Assembly (NCBI GenBank): GCA_002839355.1
Contig: PGXW01000011.1
Coordinates: 1 to 64,000, forward strand
From: Spirochaetae bacterium HGW-Spirochaetae-2
GTDB lineage: Bacteria; Spirochaetota; Spirochaetia; Sphaerochaetales; Sphaerochaetaceae
DNA: 64,000 nucleotides
Direction of reading: 5' to 3'
The notes beneath the pieces are model-generated. The model had not been told where the DNA came from and searched no databases. It saw only the letters and a list, made by a program, of their open reading frames with translations. Both the position numbers and the translations under genes were made by a program. Positions 29,439 to 61,670 of this stretch are shown here, piece by piece; position 1 is the stretch's first letter; every line of letters begins with the position of its first letter.

Positions 29439-29592
29439 ATGAATGGTATCGCAACCCCAGGGCAAGCCCTGGACCCGGGAGGCTTCGCCTCCGCTGCCGC
29501 CCCATGGGGCGGGGTATCTCACCCTACGTTCCCTGCACTTACTCGGTAATGGACCAATAGTAATTGTTCCGCTACCCTCGTTTCGTTGGGGA
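29439..29592 (+). repeat. Dispersed palindromic repeat, copy A (decayed)
   Basis: The left half is intact: ATGAATGGTATC, then hairpins CCAGGGCAAGCCCTGG, GGAGGCTTCGCCTCC and GCCCCATGGGGC. The right half (CCTGCACTTACTCGGTAATGG... to CGTTTCGTTGGGG) is a diverged version of copies B-D. ATGAATGGT(A/C)TC stands at both ends (29439 and 29593). Confidence 0.85.
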
Positions 29593-29606
29593 ATGAATGG
29601 TCTCGA

Positions 29607-51499: not shown

Positions 51500-52090
51500 A
51501 TCAAGATTTTCACCATATACGATACCCGACCTATCGAAGATGCATCGGTGTTGAACCCATGGTTCCGTCGAACCTGCAGGGCTGTGGTTGTCCACGAGGG
51601 GCGTATGGCCTTCTCCTATATGGCAAACCGCAGCCAATATGTCTTGCCCGGTGGAGGGATCGATCCCGGAGAGACGCCCCAGGAGTGTGCACAAAGGGAA
51701 TGCATGGAAGAATTGGGTTTGGGTATAACAGCATCCGAACCGGTGGGTATGGTACGGGAGTACTACGATGGTATCCTACGGTACGAGAACCTGTACCTGG
51801 AGGCAAAGCCGACTGGTCTTCGCGGCACACCCCAACGTACCGAGGAAGAGATCGGCCTCGGCATACAGGAACGCTGGTTGGATCTGCAATCAACCCGACC
51901 TACACTTCTACAGGCGCCGGCACATTTGATGCCGCACGAGTCTCAGACGGATCATGTGCAACGGGCGATCGCCAATTGCCATATGCGCGAATTGCTGGGA
52001 ATCTCGACAGTGCTCGGTTGGCCATGGGAAACCATTGCCGAAAGTCGGACCAGGATTGCCGGTATAGCAGTGGAATTTAAAATAATCTGA
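51500..52090 (+). CDS. Nudix hydrolase, probable ATC start
   Basis: The Nudix box fits perfectly: GGIDPGETPQECAQ followed by RECMEELG (Gx5Ex7REx2EExG). It hydrolyses nucleoside diphosphates linked to another group; substrate unknown. Reading in frame directly after the rlmN stop gives GSP then IKIFTIYDTRPIEDASVL, a plausible N-terminus, but there is no ATG, GTG or TTG before GTG 51548. GAGGT (51489-51493) sits 6 nt before ATC at 51500, so ATC is proposed. The stop codon is formed where the palindromic repeat B begins (T plus GA of the repeat), so the C-terminus may have been changed. Confidence 0.75.
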   Translation: MKIFTIYDTRPIEDASVLNPWFRRTCRAVVVHEGRMAFSYMANRSQYVLPGGGIDPGETPQECAQRECMEELGLGITASEPVGMVREYYDGILRYENLYLEAKPTGLRGTPQRTEEEIGLGIQERWLDLQSTRPTLLQAPAHLMPHESQTDHVQRAIANCHMRELLGISTVLGWPWETIAESRTRIAGIAVEFKII

Positions 52091-52334
52091 TTGCCAAACG
52101 AAGTGAGTGGAAAGGGGCCATGCAATGGCCACTCTCCCGAGCGAGTGCAGGCAACGTGAGGTGACCGAAGGAACCTTTCATGCCAAACGAAGTGAGTGGA
52201 AAGGGGCCATGCAATGGCCACTCTCCCGAGCGAGTGCAGGCAACGTGAGGATCCATACCTCGCCCCTTGGGGCGGGAAAGGAGGCGAAGCCTCCCGGGGC
52301 CAGGGCTTGCCCTGGGGGTATTGATACCTCTCAT
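52089..52334 (-). repeat. Dispersed palindromic repeat, copy B, one full and one internally deleted unit
   Basis: On the minus strand a full unit runs from ATGAGAGGTATC (52334) through the hairpins to TTTGGCA, and a shortened unit follows directly. The shared 70 bp (52092-52161 and 52181-52250) are identical, 89 bp apart. The last hairpin reads GGCCAT-TGC-ATGGCC, where copies C and D have GACCA/TGGTC. Confidence 0.9.
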
Positions 52335-56871: not shown

Positions 56872-57169
56872 TTAGATTAGACATCGTTATTAGTCCGAAA
56901 TTAGGATGCCCGGAAATCTTCATACCAATCAACCCCCTTGTATTATTTATTAGAAACTACTTCGATGCAAGTTTCTGTCGGGCCTTGCCATGCGTCAATT
57001 GCCATATAGATCAAATCATAGCAAAAAGCAAATCACAATCGTGATGCCAATCAAGCAGTATGTTTTTAGAATAGTCGAGAGCCGACAGAAAGGTTGCATT
57101 TTATTAAAATCGTGAATATACTTGAAGCGTATTAGTTCGTAAAATACGAAATAATAAATGGAGGTGTAT
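56872..57169. other. AT-rich intergenic region before the ATPase gene
   Basis: No gene, tRNA or clear promoter is visible. Base composition changes sharply to AT-rich here and stays so to about 58.95 kb, which marks the left boundary of a probably acquired segment. Confidence 0.6.
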
Positions 57170-58279
57170 ATGATTGTGATGAACCTGAAACTTAACAATA
57201 TCTATGCGTTCAATAATTTTGAAATCAGCATGTCTTATCCAAAAAAGATTGTGAATTCAAATATTGAAGAAGAATTCTTGTACGAAAGACCAAACTTCAG
57301 ATATAAAAAACTCATTGTTCTCATGGGTGCCAATGCATCAGGAAAGACTACATTGGGAAAAGCCCTTAAAGGAATCTTCAACTTCATTTCAAAAAAAACT
57401 CCCGATCCATTGGTAAGTTGTATCAACGACAACACAAAAACTGCTTCATTCATGATCGACTTCATTACCGACACAAATTCCAATCGGTTGTATCGCGTGG
57501 CAGGTACTATTCGACCACCCAAAACCGATTCCTACAAAGAAGAAGATATAGACGTCGCAGTGAAACATGTTGCTATCAACAAGAATGATAGCTATGAAAC
57601 ATGTATATCCAAGTTGGATGTCCTCACCGATAAAAAAGAATCCTATATCAAAGCACTGGATGAGGTTGAAAATTTCGGCTGGAACTTTTCATTTCCAAGT
57701 CAGGAGAACACCATCAGATCACTCAAGGATCTACATAAGGTTGGGTTCAAGGATATGCTCGAGATTATACTTTCATCCCTCGATCCCTCAGTCCAGGAAG
57801 TTGTTGAAGCCCGGGATATTGAAGATTCGTACATCATAAAATTGAGCGGCCACGACTTGATTCTGAAAGACGGTAAAATTCTGAATGGGGAGATCCTCTC
57901 AAGCGGCACGAGATCTGGAATCGATATCGCGATCCTACTTACCTCAATCACTTCAAGACAAAATGGATTCTATTATTGTGATGAGAAATTTTCGTACATA
58001 CATAGTGATATGGAAAAAGAGATACTGGTAAAAATGGTTGGGAAATTGGGGCATAACGAACAATTATTTTTTACAACCCATAATTCCGACATACTGGATA
58101 TGGAATTCCCGAAACATACATTTGTGTTCTTGAAGAAAAGAATCATCAATGGAAGAAGTGAGGTGCAGTGCGTCTATGCGGACGACTATCTGAAAAGGAA
58201 TACAGATTCATTGAGAAGAGCAGTTGAGAATGACTTGTTCTCGATAGCTCCTAGCGTAAGCCGCATCGATCGTCTGTAA
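57170..58279 (+). CDS. ABC/AAA-type ATPase of an OLD/RloA-like defence pair
   Basis: Motifs are Walker A LMGANASGKTTLGKAL, the signature ILSSGTRSGIDIAILL, a Walker-B-like FYYCDEKFSYIHSDMEKEIL and the H-loop LFFTTHNSDILDME. This is the order found in RloA, AriA and OLD-type ATPases that partner with nucleases in phage defence. GGAGGTG places the start at ATG 57170 (369 residues). The gene is AT-rich and codon use differs from its neighbours. The next gene, 14 bp downstream, is a small TOPRIM-like protein. Confidence 0.82.
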   Translation: MIVMNLKLNNIYAFNNFEISMSYPKKIVNSNIEEEFLYERPNFRYKKLIVLMGANASGKTTLGKALKGIFNFISKKTPDPLVSCINDNTKTASFMIDFITDTNSNRLYRVAGTIRPPKTDSYKEEDIDVAVKHVAINKNDSYETCISKLDVLTDKKESYIKALDEVENFGWNFSFPSQENTIRSLKDLHKVGFKDMLEIILSSLDPSVQEVVEARDIEDSYIIKLSGHDLILKDGKILNGEILSSGTRSGIDIAILLTSITSRQNGFYYCDEKFSYIHSDMEKEILVKMVGKLGHNEQLFFTTHNSDILDMEFPKHTFVFLKKRIINGRSEVQCVYADDYLKRNTDSLRRAVENDLFSIAPSVSRIDRL

Positions 58280-58293
58280 AGAGTGGGGTAAGA

Positions 58294-58948
58294 ATGAATC
58301 AGTATTACCAATATTATGTTGAAGGTGAAACAGAAGAGAAGATACTAGAGGTCCTAAAAACAGATTTCCGATGCATCATGCCGGGAAAAGTTAAGGTTTT
58401 CAATGTTATTGAAGAAAAGTTCTCACGCTCGAAATTGATTTCATTAAAACGTAAGACCAATGTAGTTTTGGTTTTTGATACTGACTCATCGGATTCATCG
58501 ACCCTACGAGCAAACATTAGTTTTCTTGAGGAACAATCGGTTGTAAGACAGGTGATCTGCATCCCACAAGTGAAAAACCTGGAAGAAGAATTGATCCGTT
58601 GCTGTAATATCAGGAAAATGAAAGGTATCATCACCCCCAGGGCAAGCCCTGGACCCAGGAGGCGTCGCCTCCTTTGCCTCTCCAAAGGACAAGGTACGGA
58701 TACTTACGTTGCCTGCACTCGCTCGGGAGAGTGACCACCTCATGGTCCCTTTCCACTCGCTTCGTTTGGCAATCAAAGAATTACTTTCAAGTAAATTTGA
58801 TTCAAACTTCAAGAATGATTTATGCAATTGCAACGGACTGATGGGTGCAATGCAAATACATGAATTCAATATGGAACTTTTCTGGTCGTCAGCACCATCG
58901 GGAGAATTTTCAAGTATCCCGAATAATTCGAATTCGATAAGACTTTAG
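58294..58948 (+). pseudogene. TOPRIM-like partner of the ATPase, interrupted by palindromic repeat C
   Basis: The N-terminus QYYVEGETEEKILEVL has the TOPRIM Glu and NVVLVFDTDSSDS the Asp-x-Asp pair, typical of the nuclease partners in ATPase-TOPRIM systems (PARIS, RloAB, OLD). After 108 codons the reading frame enters a copy of the repeat and stops at 58734. Downstream of the repeat the frame shifted by one continues (KELLSSKFDSNFKND to NSIRL) to 58948. Removing 157 bp joins both halves into a protein of about 165 residues. Whether the truncated product still works is unknown. Confidence 0.72.
58618..58774 (+). repeat. Dispersed palindromic repeat, copy C, 157 bp, inside the TOPRIM-like gene
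   Basis: Runs from ATGAAAGGTATC to TTTGGCAATC. Hairpins: CCAGGGCAAGCCCTGG, GGAGGCGTCGCCTCC, CACTC/GAGTG around GCTCGGGA, and GACCA/TGGTC. Closely similar to copies B and D. Confidence 0.9.
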
Positions 58949-60406: not shown

Positions 60407-61576
60407 TCACCAGGAACTGCCCAAAATCGGACGCAGCGAGATCTCTCCTGAACGCAAGTGCTGTACCGAACCGTCGGCAAGGCGCACCACAAGCGCACCA
60501 TCGTCGGCAATACCGGTGGCTTCCGCCTCGTACGAGACAGCGCCCTGTACCACCCGTACCCGATGACCGACCACCACCGAACGACGACGGTACTCCTCCA
60601 TGAAATGAAAGGTATCCCTACCCCAGGGCAAGGGGTGGACCCGGGAGGCTTCGCCTCCTTTCCCGCCCCAAGGGGCGAGGTATGAATCCTTACGTTGCCT
60701 GCACTCGCTCGGGAGAGTGACCATTCCATGGTCCGTGACCATTCCATGGTCCCTTTCCTCTCGCTCCGTTTGGCAATCGACCTGACCCATGTGGTCCACC
60801 ACAGCCAACAATTCCTCGACGATGCTCGCGGCCAATCGGTTCCTGGAAGCTTCGGGTGGCGCGGTGTCGACAAACAAGGCCCCCGCGATCCCCTGCAGCT
60901 CCTGGGGAAACCCTTCGGGCGATACCGTATGGTTCACCCCTATGCCGACCACCAGGCTCTCGATCCTCCCGGTCTCGAAACCGCTGATTCCTTCGGTCAG
61001 GATACCACAGACCTTGAGGGAATCGATCAGGATATCGTTGACCCACTTGATTCCCGCCCGACGGTCGCACATCCGTTCGATAGCCCGGCACACCGCGACA
61101 GCTGCACCAGAGGTGACCCGCAAAGCCATGGCCGTGTCCAATTCGGGGCGCAGGAGGACACTCACGTACAGGCCGCTATCGCTGGGCGAGAAGAAAGATT
61201 TTCCGTTGCGCCCTCGCCCCTCGGTCTGACGCCCGGCAACCACGACCGTGCCGTGGGGAGCACCATCCAAGGCCAATCGCTTCGCCTCGCCATTGGTGGA
61301 GCCGATGCTTTCATGGAAATGCAGGGGAAGATCGAGATAGCGCTTGTCGGTGAACGCCGAACGGATACCTTGCTCCGAGAGCACATCGCTACTCTCCGAC
61401 AGACGGTACCCGATCTTGGTCGAAGCCTCGATCGCATGTCCTGAAAGGCGCAAATCGTGGATCGCCCGCCACACGGCTGCCCGGGTGATCTGTAGTTGCC
61501 GTGCAATCTCCTCGCCCGAGATATGGGAACCCTTGCACTGTTCCAATAGAGCCAGGACCTGCTGTTTCGAAGACAT
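60407..61576 (-). CDS. birA: Bifunctional biotin ligase/repressor BirA with an in-frame repeat insertion
   Basis: Residues 1-65 form a winged helix (SGEEIARQLQITRAAVWRAIHDLR), then the ligase core: ESIGSTNGEAKRLA, VVVAGRQTEGRGRNGKSFFSP with the biotinyl-AMP loop, GIKWVNDILID and VVGIGVNHT. Residues 267-324 (58 residues) are encoded by palindromic repeat D, with no stop codon, just before the C-terminal SH3-like domain (FMEEYRRRSVVVGHRVRVV). Without them the protein would be 331 residues, the normal length. GGAGGAAGG precedes the ATG. It likely represses bioY through the operator at 61637. Whether the enlarged protein is active is not known. Confidence 0.88.
   Translation of the reverse strand: MSSKQQVLALLEQCKGSHISGEEIARQLQITRAAVWRAIHDLRLSGHAIEASTKIGYRLSESSDVLSEQGIRSAFTDKRYLDLPLHFHESIGSTNGEAKRLALDGAPHGTVVVAGRQTEGRGRNGKSFFSPSDSGLYVSVLLRPELDTAMALRVTSGAAVAVCRAIERMCDRRAGIKWVNDILIDSLKVCGILTEGISGFETGRIESLVVGIGVNHTVSPEGFPQELQGIAGALFVDTAPPEASRNRLAASIVEELLAVVDHMGQVDCQTEREERDHGMVTDHGMVTLPSECRQRKDSYLAPWGGKGGEASRVHPLPWGRDTFHFMEEYRRRSVVVGHRVRVVQGAVSYEAEATGIADDGALVVRLADGSVQHLRSGEISLRPILGSSW
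60605..60778 (+). repeat. Dispersed palindromic repeat, copy D, 174 bp, in frame inside birA
   Basis: Runs from ATGAAAGGTATC to TTTGGCAATC. It carries an 18-bp tandem duplication (GTGACCATTCCATGGTCC, twice) and one base less near the left end compared with copy C, giving 174 bp, which is 58 codons. The first hairpin is damaged (CAGGGCAAGGGGTGG). Confidence 0.9.
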
Positions 61577-61636: not shown

Positions 61637-61670
61637 ATTGTAAACATGCAATACAATTATTGTTTACAAT
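61637..61670. promoter_or_regulatory. BirA operator (biotin box)
   Basis: ATTGTAAAC-N16-GTTTACAAT is a perfect 9-bp inverted repeat identical in form to known BirA boxes. It lies between the divergent birA and bioY genes, 41 bp before the bioY start. Confidence 0.92.

Follow-up and report, generated by a model that had tools for sequence, protein, structure and literature searches.

The gene birA (60407..61576, minus strand) lies in the window, i.e., the whole stretch of 64,000 nucleotides analysed here, and a copy of a dispersed repeat is situated within its open reading frame. The locus raises the question of whether a mobile element was inserted into this gene, whether the encoded biotin ligase/repressor tolerates it, and by which route such an element moves.

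Insertion of a repeat copy in birA

The encoded protein of 389 aa comprises an HTH_11 domain (residues 5-58), the ligase domain BPL_LplA_LipB (92-215) and a BPL_C domain (337-382), as assigned by Pfam, and the element falls in frame between the latter two. Reading of the ORF and its translation confirmed that the birA frame stays open across the repeat copy, which the preliminary description of the locus had reported as an insert of 174 bp. Comparison with the empty site in a genome of the same genus (G001) gave a net gain of 171 bp, i.e., 57 codons (C268-H324; 60605..60775, minus strand), since the 174 bp include GAT of the target (60776-60778). In G001, the counterparts of BirA residues 1-267 and 325-389 (98% and 95% identity) are encoded contiguously. 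In birA sense, with slashes marking the junctions, the empty site reads GGTCGAT/TTCATGG and the filled site GGTCGAT/TGCCAAACGG...CCTTTCAT/TTCATGG. The empty BirA has 332 aa and not the 331 residues that had been calculated. A near-identical birA without insert is found under HGW-Spirochaetae-4 (PGXU01000039); the nearest named relatives are Sphaerochaetaceae. Homologues with the same residues were also sought, and none of 58 (313-335 aa) carried the insert, which ruled out an older insert common to the relatives.

The copy was modelled as 173 nt (60605..60777, minus strand; ATTGCC...TTTCAT) and matched the covariance model of the repeat family with 166.6 bits (E 2.7e-42). With coordinates read from the alignment, it comprises a left hairpin arm TTGCC...GGCAA (60695..60776, minus strand) and a branched right hairpin arm followed by the 3' end CCTTTCAT (60607..60693, minus strand). 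The left arm holds the 18-bp tandem duplication noted previously (60716..60751, minus strand; 2 x 18, 17/18 identical; GACCATGGAATGGTCACG / GACCATGGAATGGTCACT). The copy had also been said to owe its frame to a missing base. The G run indeed lacks one base, but the sibling copies L002 and L003 share this loss, so it was inherited rather than being a repair made in birA, and the statement is correct only in half. The insert of 171 bp is divisible by three since a sibling form of 153 bp was lengthened by 18 bp. The target TCGAT (60776..60780, minus strand), with the insertion immediately 3' of it as compared with the empty site, is close to the consensus TTNAT derived from 179 copies of the family. 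As had been proposed, the repeat in birA belongs to a dispersed family, with 49 matches by BLAST and 79 by the covariance model in this genome (G000). Since many copies of the repeat exist and their ends are defined, and since a relative has the empty site, insertion is supported far beyond chance. Thus, the in-frame insertion of a dispersed repeat copy into birA was confirmed.

Consequences for BirA and other interrupted genes

A structure of BirA was predicted by AlphaFold2 from an alignment of the 58 homologues (mean pLDDT of 86). The core and the C-terminal domain mostly exceeded a pLDDT of 90, while residues 284-322 remained below 50; the 57 added residues are thus probably floppy or disordered for the most part. 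In this model, the insert comes after the last long core helix and before a short helix (325-332) leading to the C-terminal domain. This is near, though not quite at, the linker between the core and the SH3-like domain to which it had been assigned.

An open frame might also be a matter of luck in a birA that has been inactivated and is becoming a pseudogene. Between the two species, dN after the insert (0.029) is higher than before it (0.008), as would be expected in that case. The corresponding dN/dS values, which also span the time before the insertion, are 0.105 and 0.038, and there is neither a stop codon nor a frameshift. Judged from these substitution rates, purifying selection acts on both halves of BirA. 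Moreover, a PF03099 search of the genome returned this single birA plus two other ligase-family genes and no second or silent copy. The gene adjoins bioY, and the inverted repeat ATTGTAAAC-N16-GTTTACAAT between them (61637..61670) is intact, with the same arms in G001; it is likely the BirA operator, going by its position and arms. Decay of birA is therefore considered very unlikely. BirA would rather accommodate the insert, as a disordered loop at the hinge that precedes the C-terminal domain, and would remain an active ligase/repressor, the insert itself presumably having no needed function.

From separate DNA stretches, 198 copies were mapped; frames that are long only because they reach upstream of a start codon (L196, L019, L301 and L313) were left uncounted. 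Only three copies, including that in birA, are convincing in-frame cases inside identified genes. In a gene for a protein with an AraC HTH and a GyrI-like domain (G000:C43:65907-66863), a short form of the element, read antisense, contributes 30 residues, and the orthologue in G001 (98% identical) is empty. In a gene for an FAD oxidoreductase with a Fer4_20 domain (G007:C16:60636-62744), 52 residues are in frame, and the orthologues in G017, G002 and G022 are empty. All three inserts sit between domains. A 438-aa frame on G001:C28 was rejected as a fourth case, as no frame is open 30 codons past both ends.

Copies are mostly intergenic, and most genic ones break their host gene. Out-of-frame breaks affect a Sua5-like gene and, in recent bursts, Fic, YibE/F, Rce1-like, CitMHS and AIRS-family genes. 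In genome G130 (L247-L259), many copies have an identical model score, which suggests a recent burst, and several lie inside genes (AIRS family, YibE/F, Rce1-like, CitMHS). In the window, an AbiL-like defence pair (57158-58774) consists of AbiLi (PADLOC E 1.7e-28) and a second gene, which is broken out of frame by a full-length copy (58618..58773, minus strand; copy C of the preliminary description). In G186:C26 (L292), a copy apparently breaks a BREX brxB-like gene with a BrxB match at residues 35-90.

A canonical copy lengthens a gene by 154 bp and hence causes a frameshift, and the probability of a random insertion in a gene being tolerated was estimated at about 0.14 for the copies in G000, G001 and G007 and at 0.004 for recent copies in genus g3. 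Thus, the in-frame copies are best read as survivors. Alternatively, the insert may have been selected for a new property that its 57 residues confer on BirA, e.g., altered repression or partner binding. The recurrence of in-frame copies at domain junctions of three proteins would fit, as would the finding that, in G000, G001 and G007, three of about six copies inside genes are in frame (P ~0.04 against 14% expected, counted by eye). This excess is, however, explained by the purging of harmful insertions. The three inserts differ in length, one is read antisense, and they share no single conserved peptide. Furthermore, the insert in BirA is predicted to be disordered, and BirA of G001 manages without it. 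Selection for the insert is thus regarded as extremely improbable.

The element family, its target and its movement

The dispersed repeat is a short two-hairpin mobile element. Its ends were defined from an alignment of 30 copies (ATTGCCAAACGAAGCGAG... at the start and ...GATACCTTTCAT at the finish), and the covariance model was built on 26 copies. Searches with this model showed a canonical element of 156 nt, a short form (~92 nt) and arrays of units joined head to tail, in which neighbours share AT. In the window, such a dimer consists of a short form (52090..52181, plus strand; boundaries by reading) and, as a direct repeat sharing AT, a full-length unit of 155 nt (52180..52334, plus strand). 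A further mapped copy belongs to a second sequence subtype (29439..29594, minus strand).

The covariance model found 101 copies in G001, 41 in G007 and one in G002, and zero in G003 and G017. Within the family, 15 of 139 genomes carry the element; within the class, 31 of 395 do, spread over several families; in a sample of the phylum, the model confined it to genomes of the same class. No Rfam family matches it. BLAST gave no match pointing to carriage by phages or plasmids; among viral contigs, a 14-mer scan yielded chance matches only, and the model found nothing in 80 of them. Since searches of open-licence papers returned no description of it for Sphaerochaeta or spirochaetes, the element family is apparently undescribed. 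In an alignment of 63 copies including those of distant families, 91.3% of cells were paired and 36 of 42 pairs showed two-sided changes. This alignment was fitted to the model and is biased towards the structure; yet structures slid by one to three columns as controls reached only 36-54%, far from the value observed. On these alignments, the hairpins of the element covary strongly.

The target was derived from the 179 non-dimer copies, i.e., those not preceded by another copy. They are flanked by T (115 copies), T (159, designated -2), G/T/C and then AT; on the other side, the element is followed by T in 149. TTNAT precedes 106 of the 179, as compared with a background of 6.4% (p ~4e-78), so that the insertion occurs 3' of TTNAT and the target is often TTNAT/T. 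In the distant families, T was found at -2 in 41 of 43 copies, in flanks that lie outside the model. The three empty sites agree with TTNAT-type insertion, namely those of birA, the AraC/GyrI gene (AGTTCAT/TTCGTT) and the FAD/Fer4_20 gene (at the protein level). The 3' end of the element, TTCAT, is the same motif as the target, which explains the head-to-tail arrays. Neither terminal inverted repeats nor variable target duplications were seen in the aligned ends, the three empty sites and the 179 flanks, and a MITE of a DDE transposon was rejected as a candidate for this reason. The sense strand of the element lies on the locally G-rich strand in 71 of 114 and 29 of 40 cases (p 0.011 and 0.006), as expected for insertion into the lagging-strand template; this bias is modest, and the orientation of genes or relatedness among copies may confound it.

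The target rule, the TTCAT end, the lack of terminal inverted repeats and variable duplications, the likeness to ISDra2 and the strand bias together favour single-strand transposition. The element would be non-autonomous and move as a single strand by the logic of IS200/IS605 elements (Y1/HUH transposase). An enzyme provided in trans would recognise its hairpins, and cleavage on the right would take place at its target-like 3' end TTCAT. In birA, it would have inserted immediately 3' of the TTNAT-like pentanucleotide TCGAT and, as 171 bp without a stop codon, have added 57 translated residues. This whole reading, including the tolerated in-frame insertion, is considered probable.

A search for the mobilising enzyme, in the neighbourhoods of the copies and among Y1/RAYT genes across carriers, returned no transposase tied to the element, and Y1 genes do not lie beside copies as a rule. 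Y1 genes occur in all but one of the 15 element-bearing genomes of the family, yet also in most element-free ones. One Y1/RAYT-like gene, which holds its place after dprA in several Sphaerochaeta genomes, has its stop codon overlapped by an element copy of the second subtype (L066; G000:C4:22276-22391). The element might hence belong to the REP/RAYT world, in which a domesticated tyrosine transposase encoded by a single-copy gene disperses palindromic repeats; the dprA-adjacent gene would play this part here. Full-length relatives of this gene (E < 1e-60) were found in G117, G132, G133, G115 and G026, all of which bear the element, and in no element-free genome of that test. However, the clade is missing from the element-rich genomes G159, G227, G297, G337, G347 and G413, G001 has its 101 copies with only a different RAYT, and in G118 the gene is present and the element absent. 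In addition, no element lies beside the other RAYT genes tested, and the element has neither a GTAG nor a CGTC tag and measures 156 nt rather than 20-40 nt. Mobilisation by this gene thus appears unlikely. Among other genes of these kinds, the IS200-like tnpA of L265 (G117:C4:75427-75880) has a 3' region (GATACC-hairpin-GAAATTCAT) that resembles the right end of the element, and the RAYT-like genes L062, L065 and L067 are flanked by short palindromes of their own (GTACCTGGCACC type).

Alternatively, the covarying structure might be that of an RNA, and a route other than Y1, e.g., through an RNA copy, would be in line with the very strong covariation and with the finding that transposases are neither near copies as a rule nor common to all carriers. 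The target motif equal to the end of the element itself, as in IS200/IS605 elements, and the absent Rfam match speak against such a route, which is judged quite unlikely. That a structured element has spread across the class without a dedicated transposase family common to its hosts, repeatedly donating peptides to domain junctions, is a possible but doubtful generalisation. Given the empty site and the target rule, it has become directly testable whether BirA tolerates the insert and which enzyme mobilises the element.

Comparison with known repeats and transposons

For ISDra2, the insertion point lies 3' of TTGAT, a pentanucleotide that invariably precedes the left end of this transposon (PMC2806898). 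The element shares with ISDra2 and IS200/IS605 elements a fixed pentanucleotide target, hairpins at both ends, the lack of terminal inverted repeats and possibly a strand bias. It differs in having no internal tnpA, no autonomous partner having been found, and in hairpin placement. IS608 carries a spaced guide sequence, whereas the left hairpin of the element begins directly at its end without such spacing.

REP/REPIN-RAYT systems are likewise palindromic and dispersed, and several carriers of the element have single-copy Y1/RAYT genes. REP-type repeats can lie in genes, and CGTC repeats were reported in Spirochaetes (PMC3733652); the ends of the element lack a GTAG/CGTC tag, it is much longer, and it flanks a RAYT gene only once (G000), with none at the other RAYT loci tested. 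ERIC, Correia and YPAL repeats are small, non-autonomous and occasionally fused in frame to genes (PMC2229807), but these mostly show terminal inverted repeats and target duplications and reside in other host phyla.

Rickettsia palindromic elements (RPEs) are palindromic dispersed repeats of ~100-150 nt, some of which are tolerated in frame in conserved proteins (PMC2229807, PMC10969869), and nearly half of the first RPEs lay within ORFs (PMC10969869). The resemblance to RPEs proposed in the preliminary description holds for the outcome, i.e., in-frame insertion into conserved protein genes (birA, AraC/GyrI and FAD/Fer4_20, each with empty orthologues), but not for kinship. As compared by description, RPEs have terminal inverted repeats of ~12 bp, while the element ends ATTGCCAAACG and GATACCTTTCAT are not complementary; the element consists of two separate hairpins with a TTNAT target and no CGTC tag, is mostly intergenic or gene-breaking, and is in frame in only 3 of 198 copies. 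By this comparison, the outcome of its insertion parallels that of RPEs and its choice of target that of ISDra2-type elements, a resemblance short of established membership in either group.

Examples of small palindromic repeats fused in frame already existed from Rickettsia (PMC10969869, PMC2229807) and among REP-type repeats (PMC3733652). The birA locus adds an example for which a near-identical relative has the empty site, and it defines a family of elements, apparently undescribed, that follows a clear target rule. It indicates that selfish DNA of this kind can also invade working proteins, presumably including BirA, in bacteria other than Rickettsia. The range of palindromic elements inserted in proteins, formerly Rickettsia and a few Proteobacteria, thereby widens to include spirochaetes.
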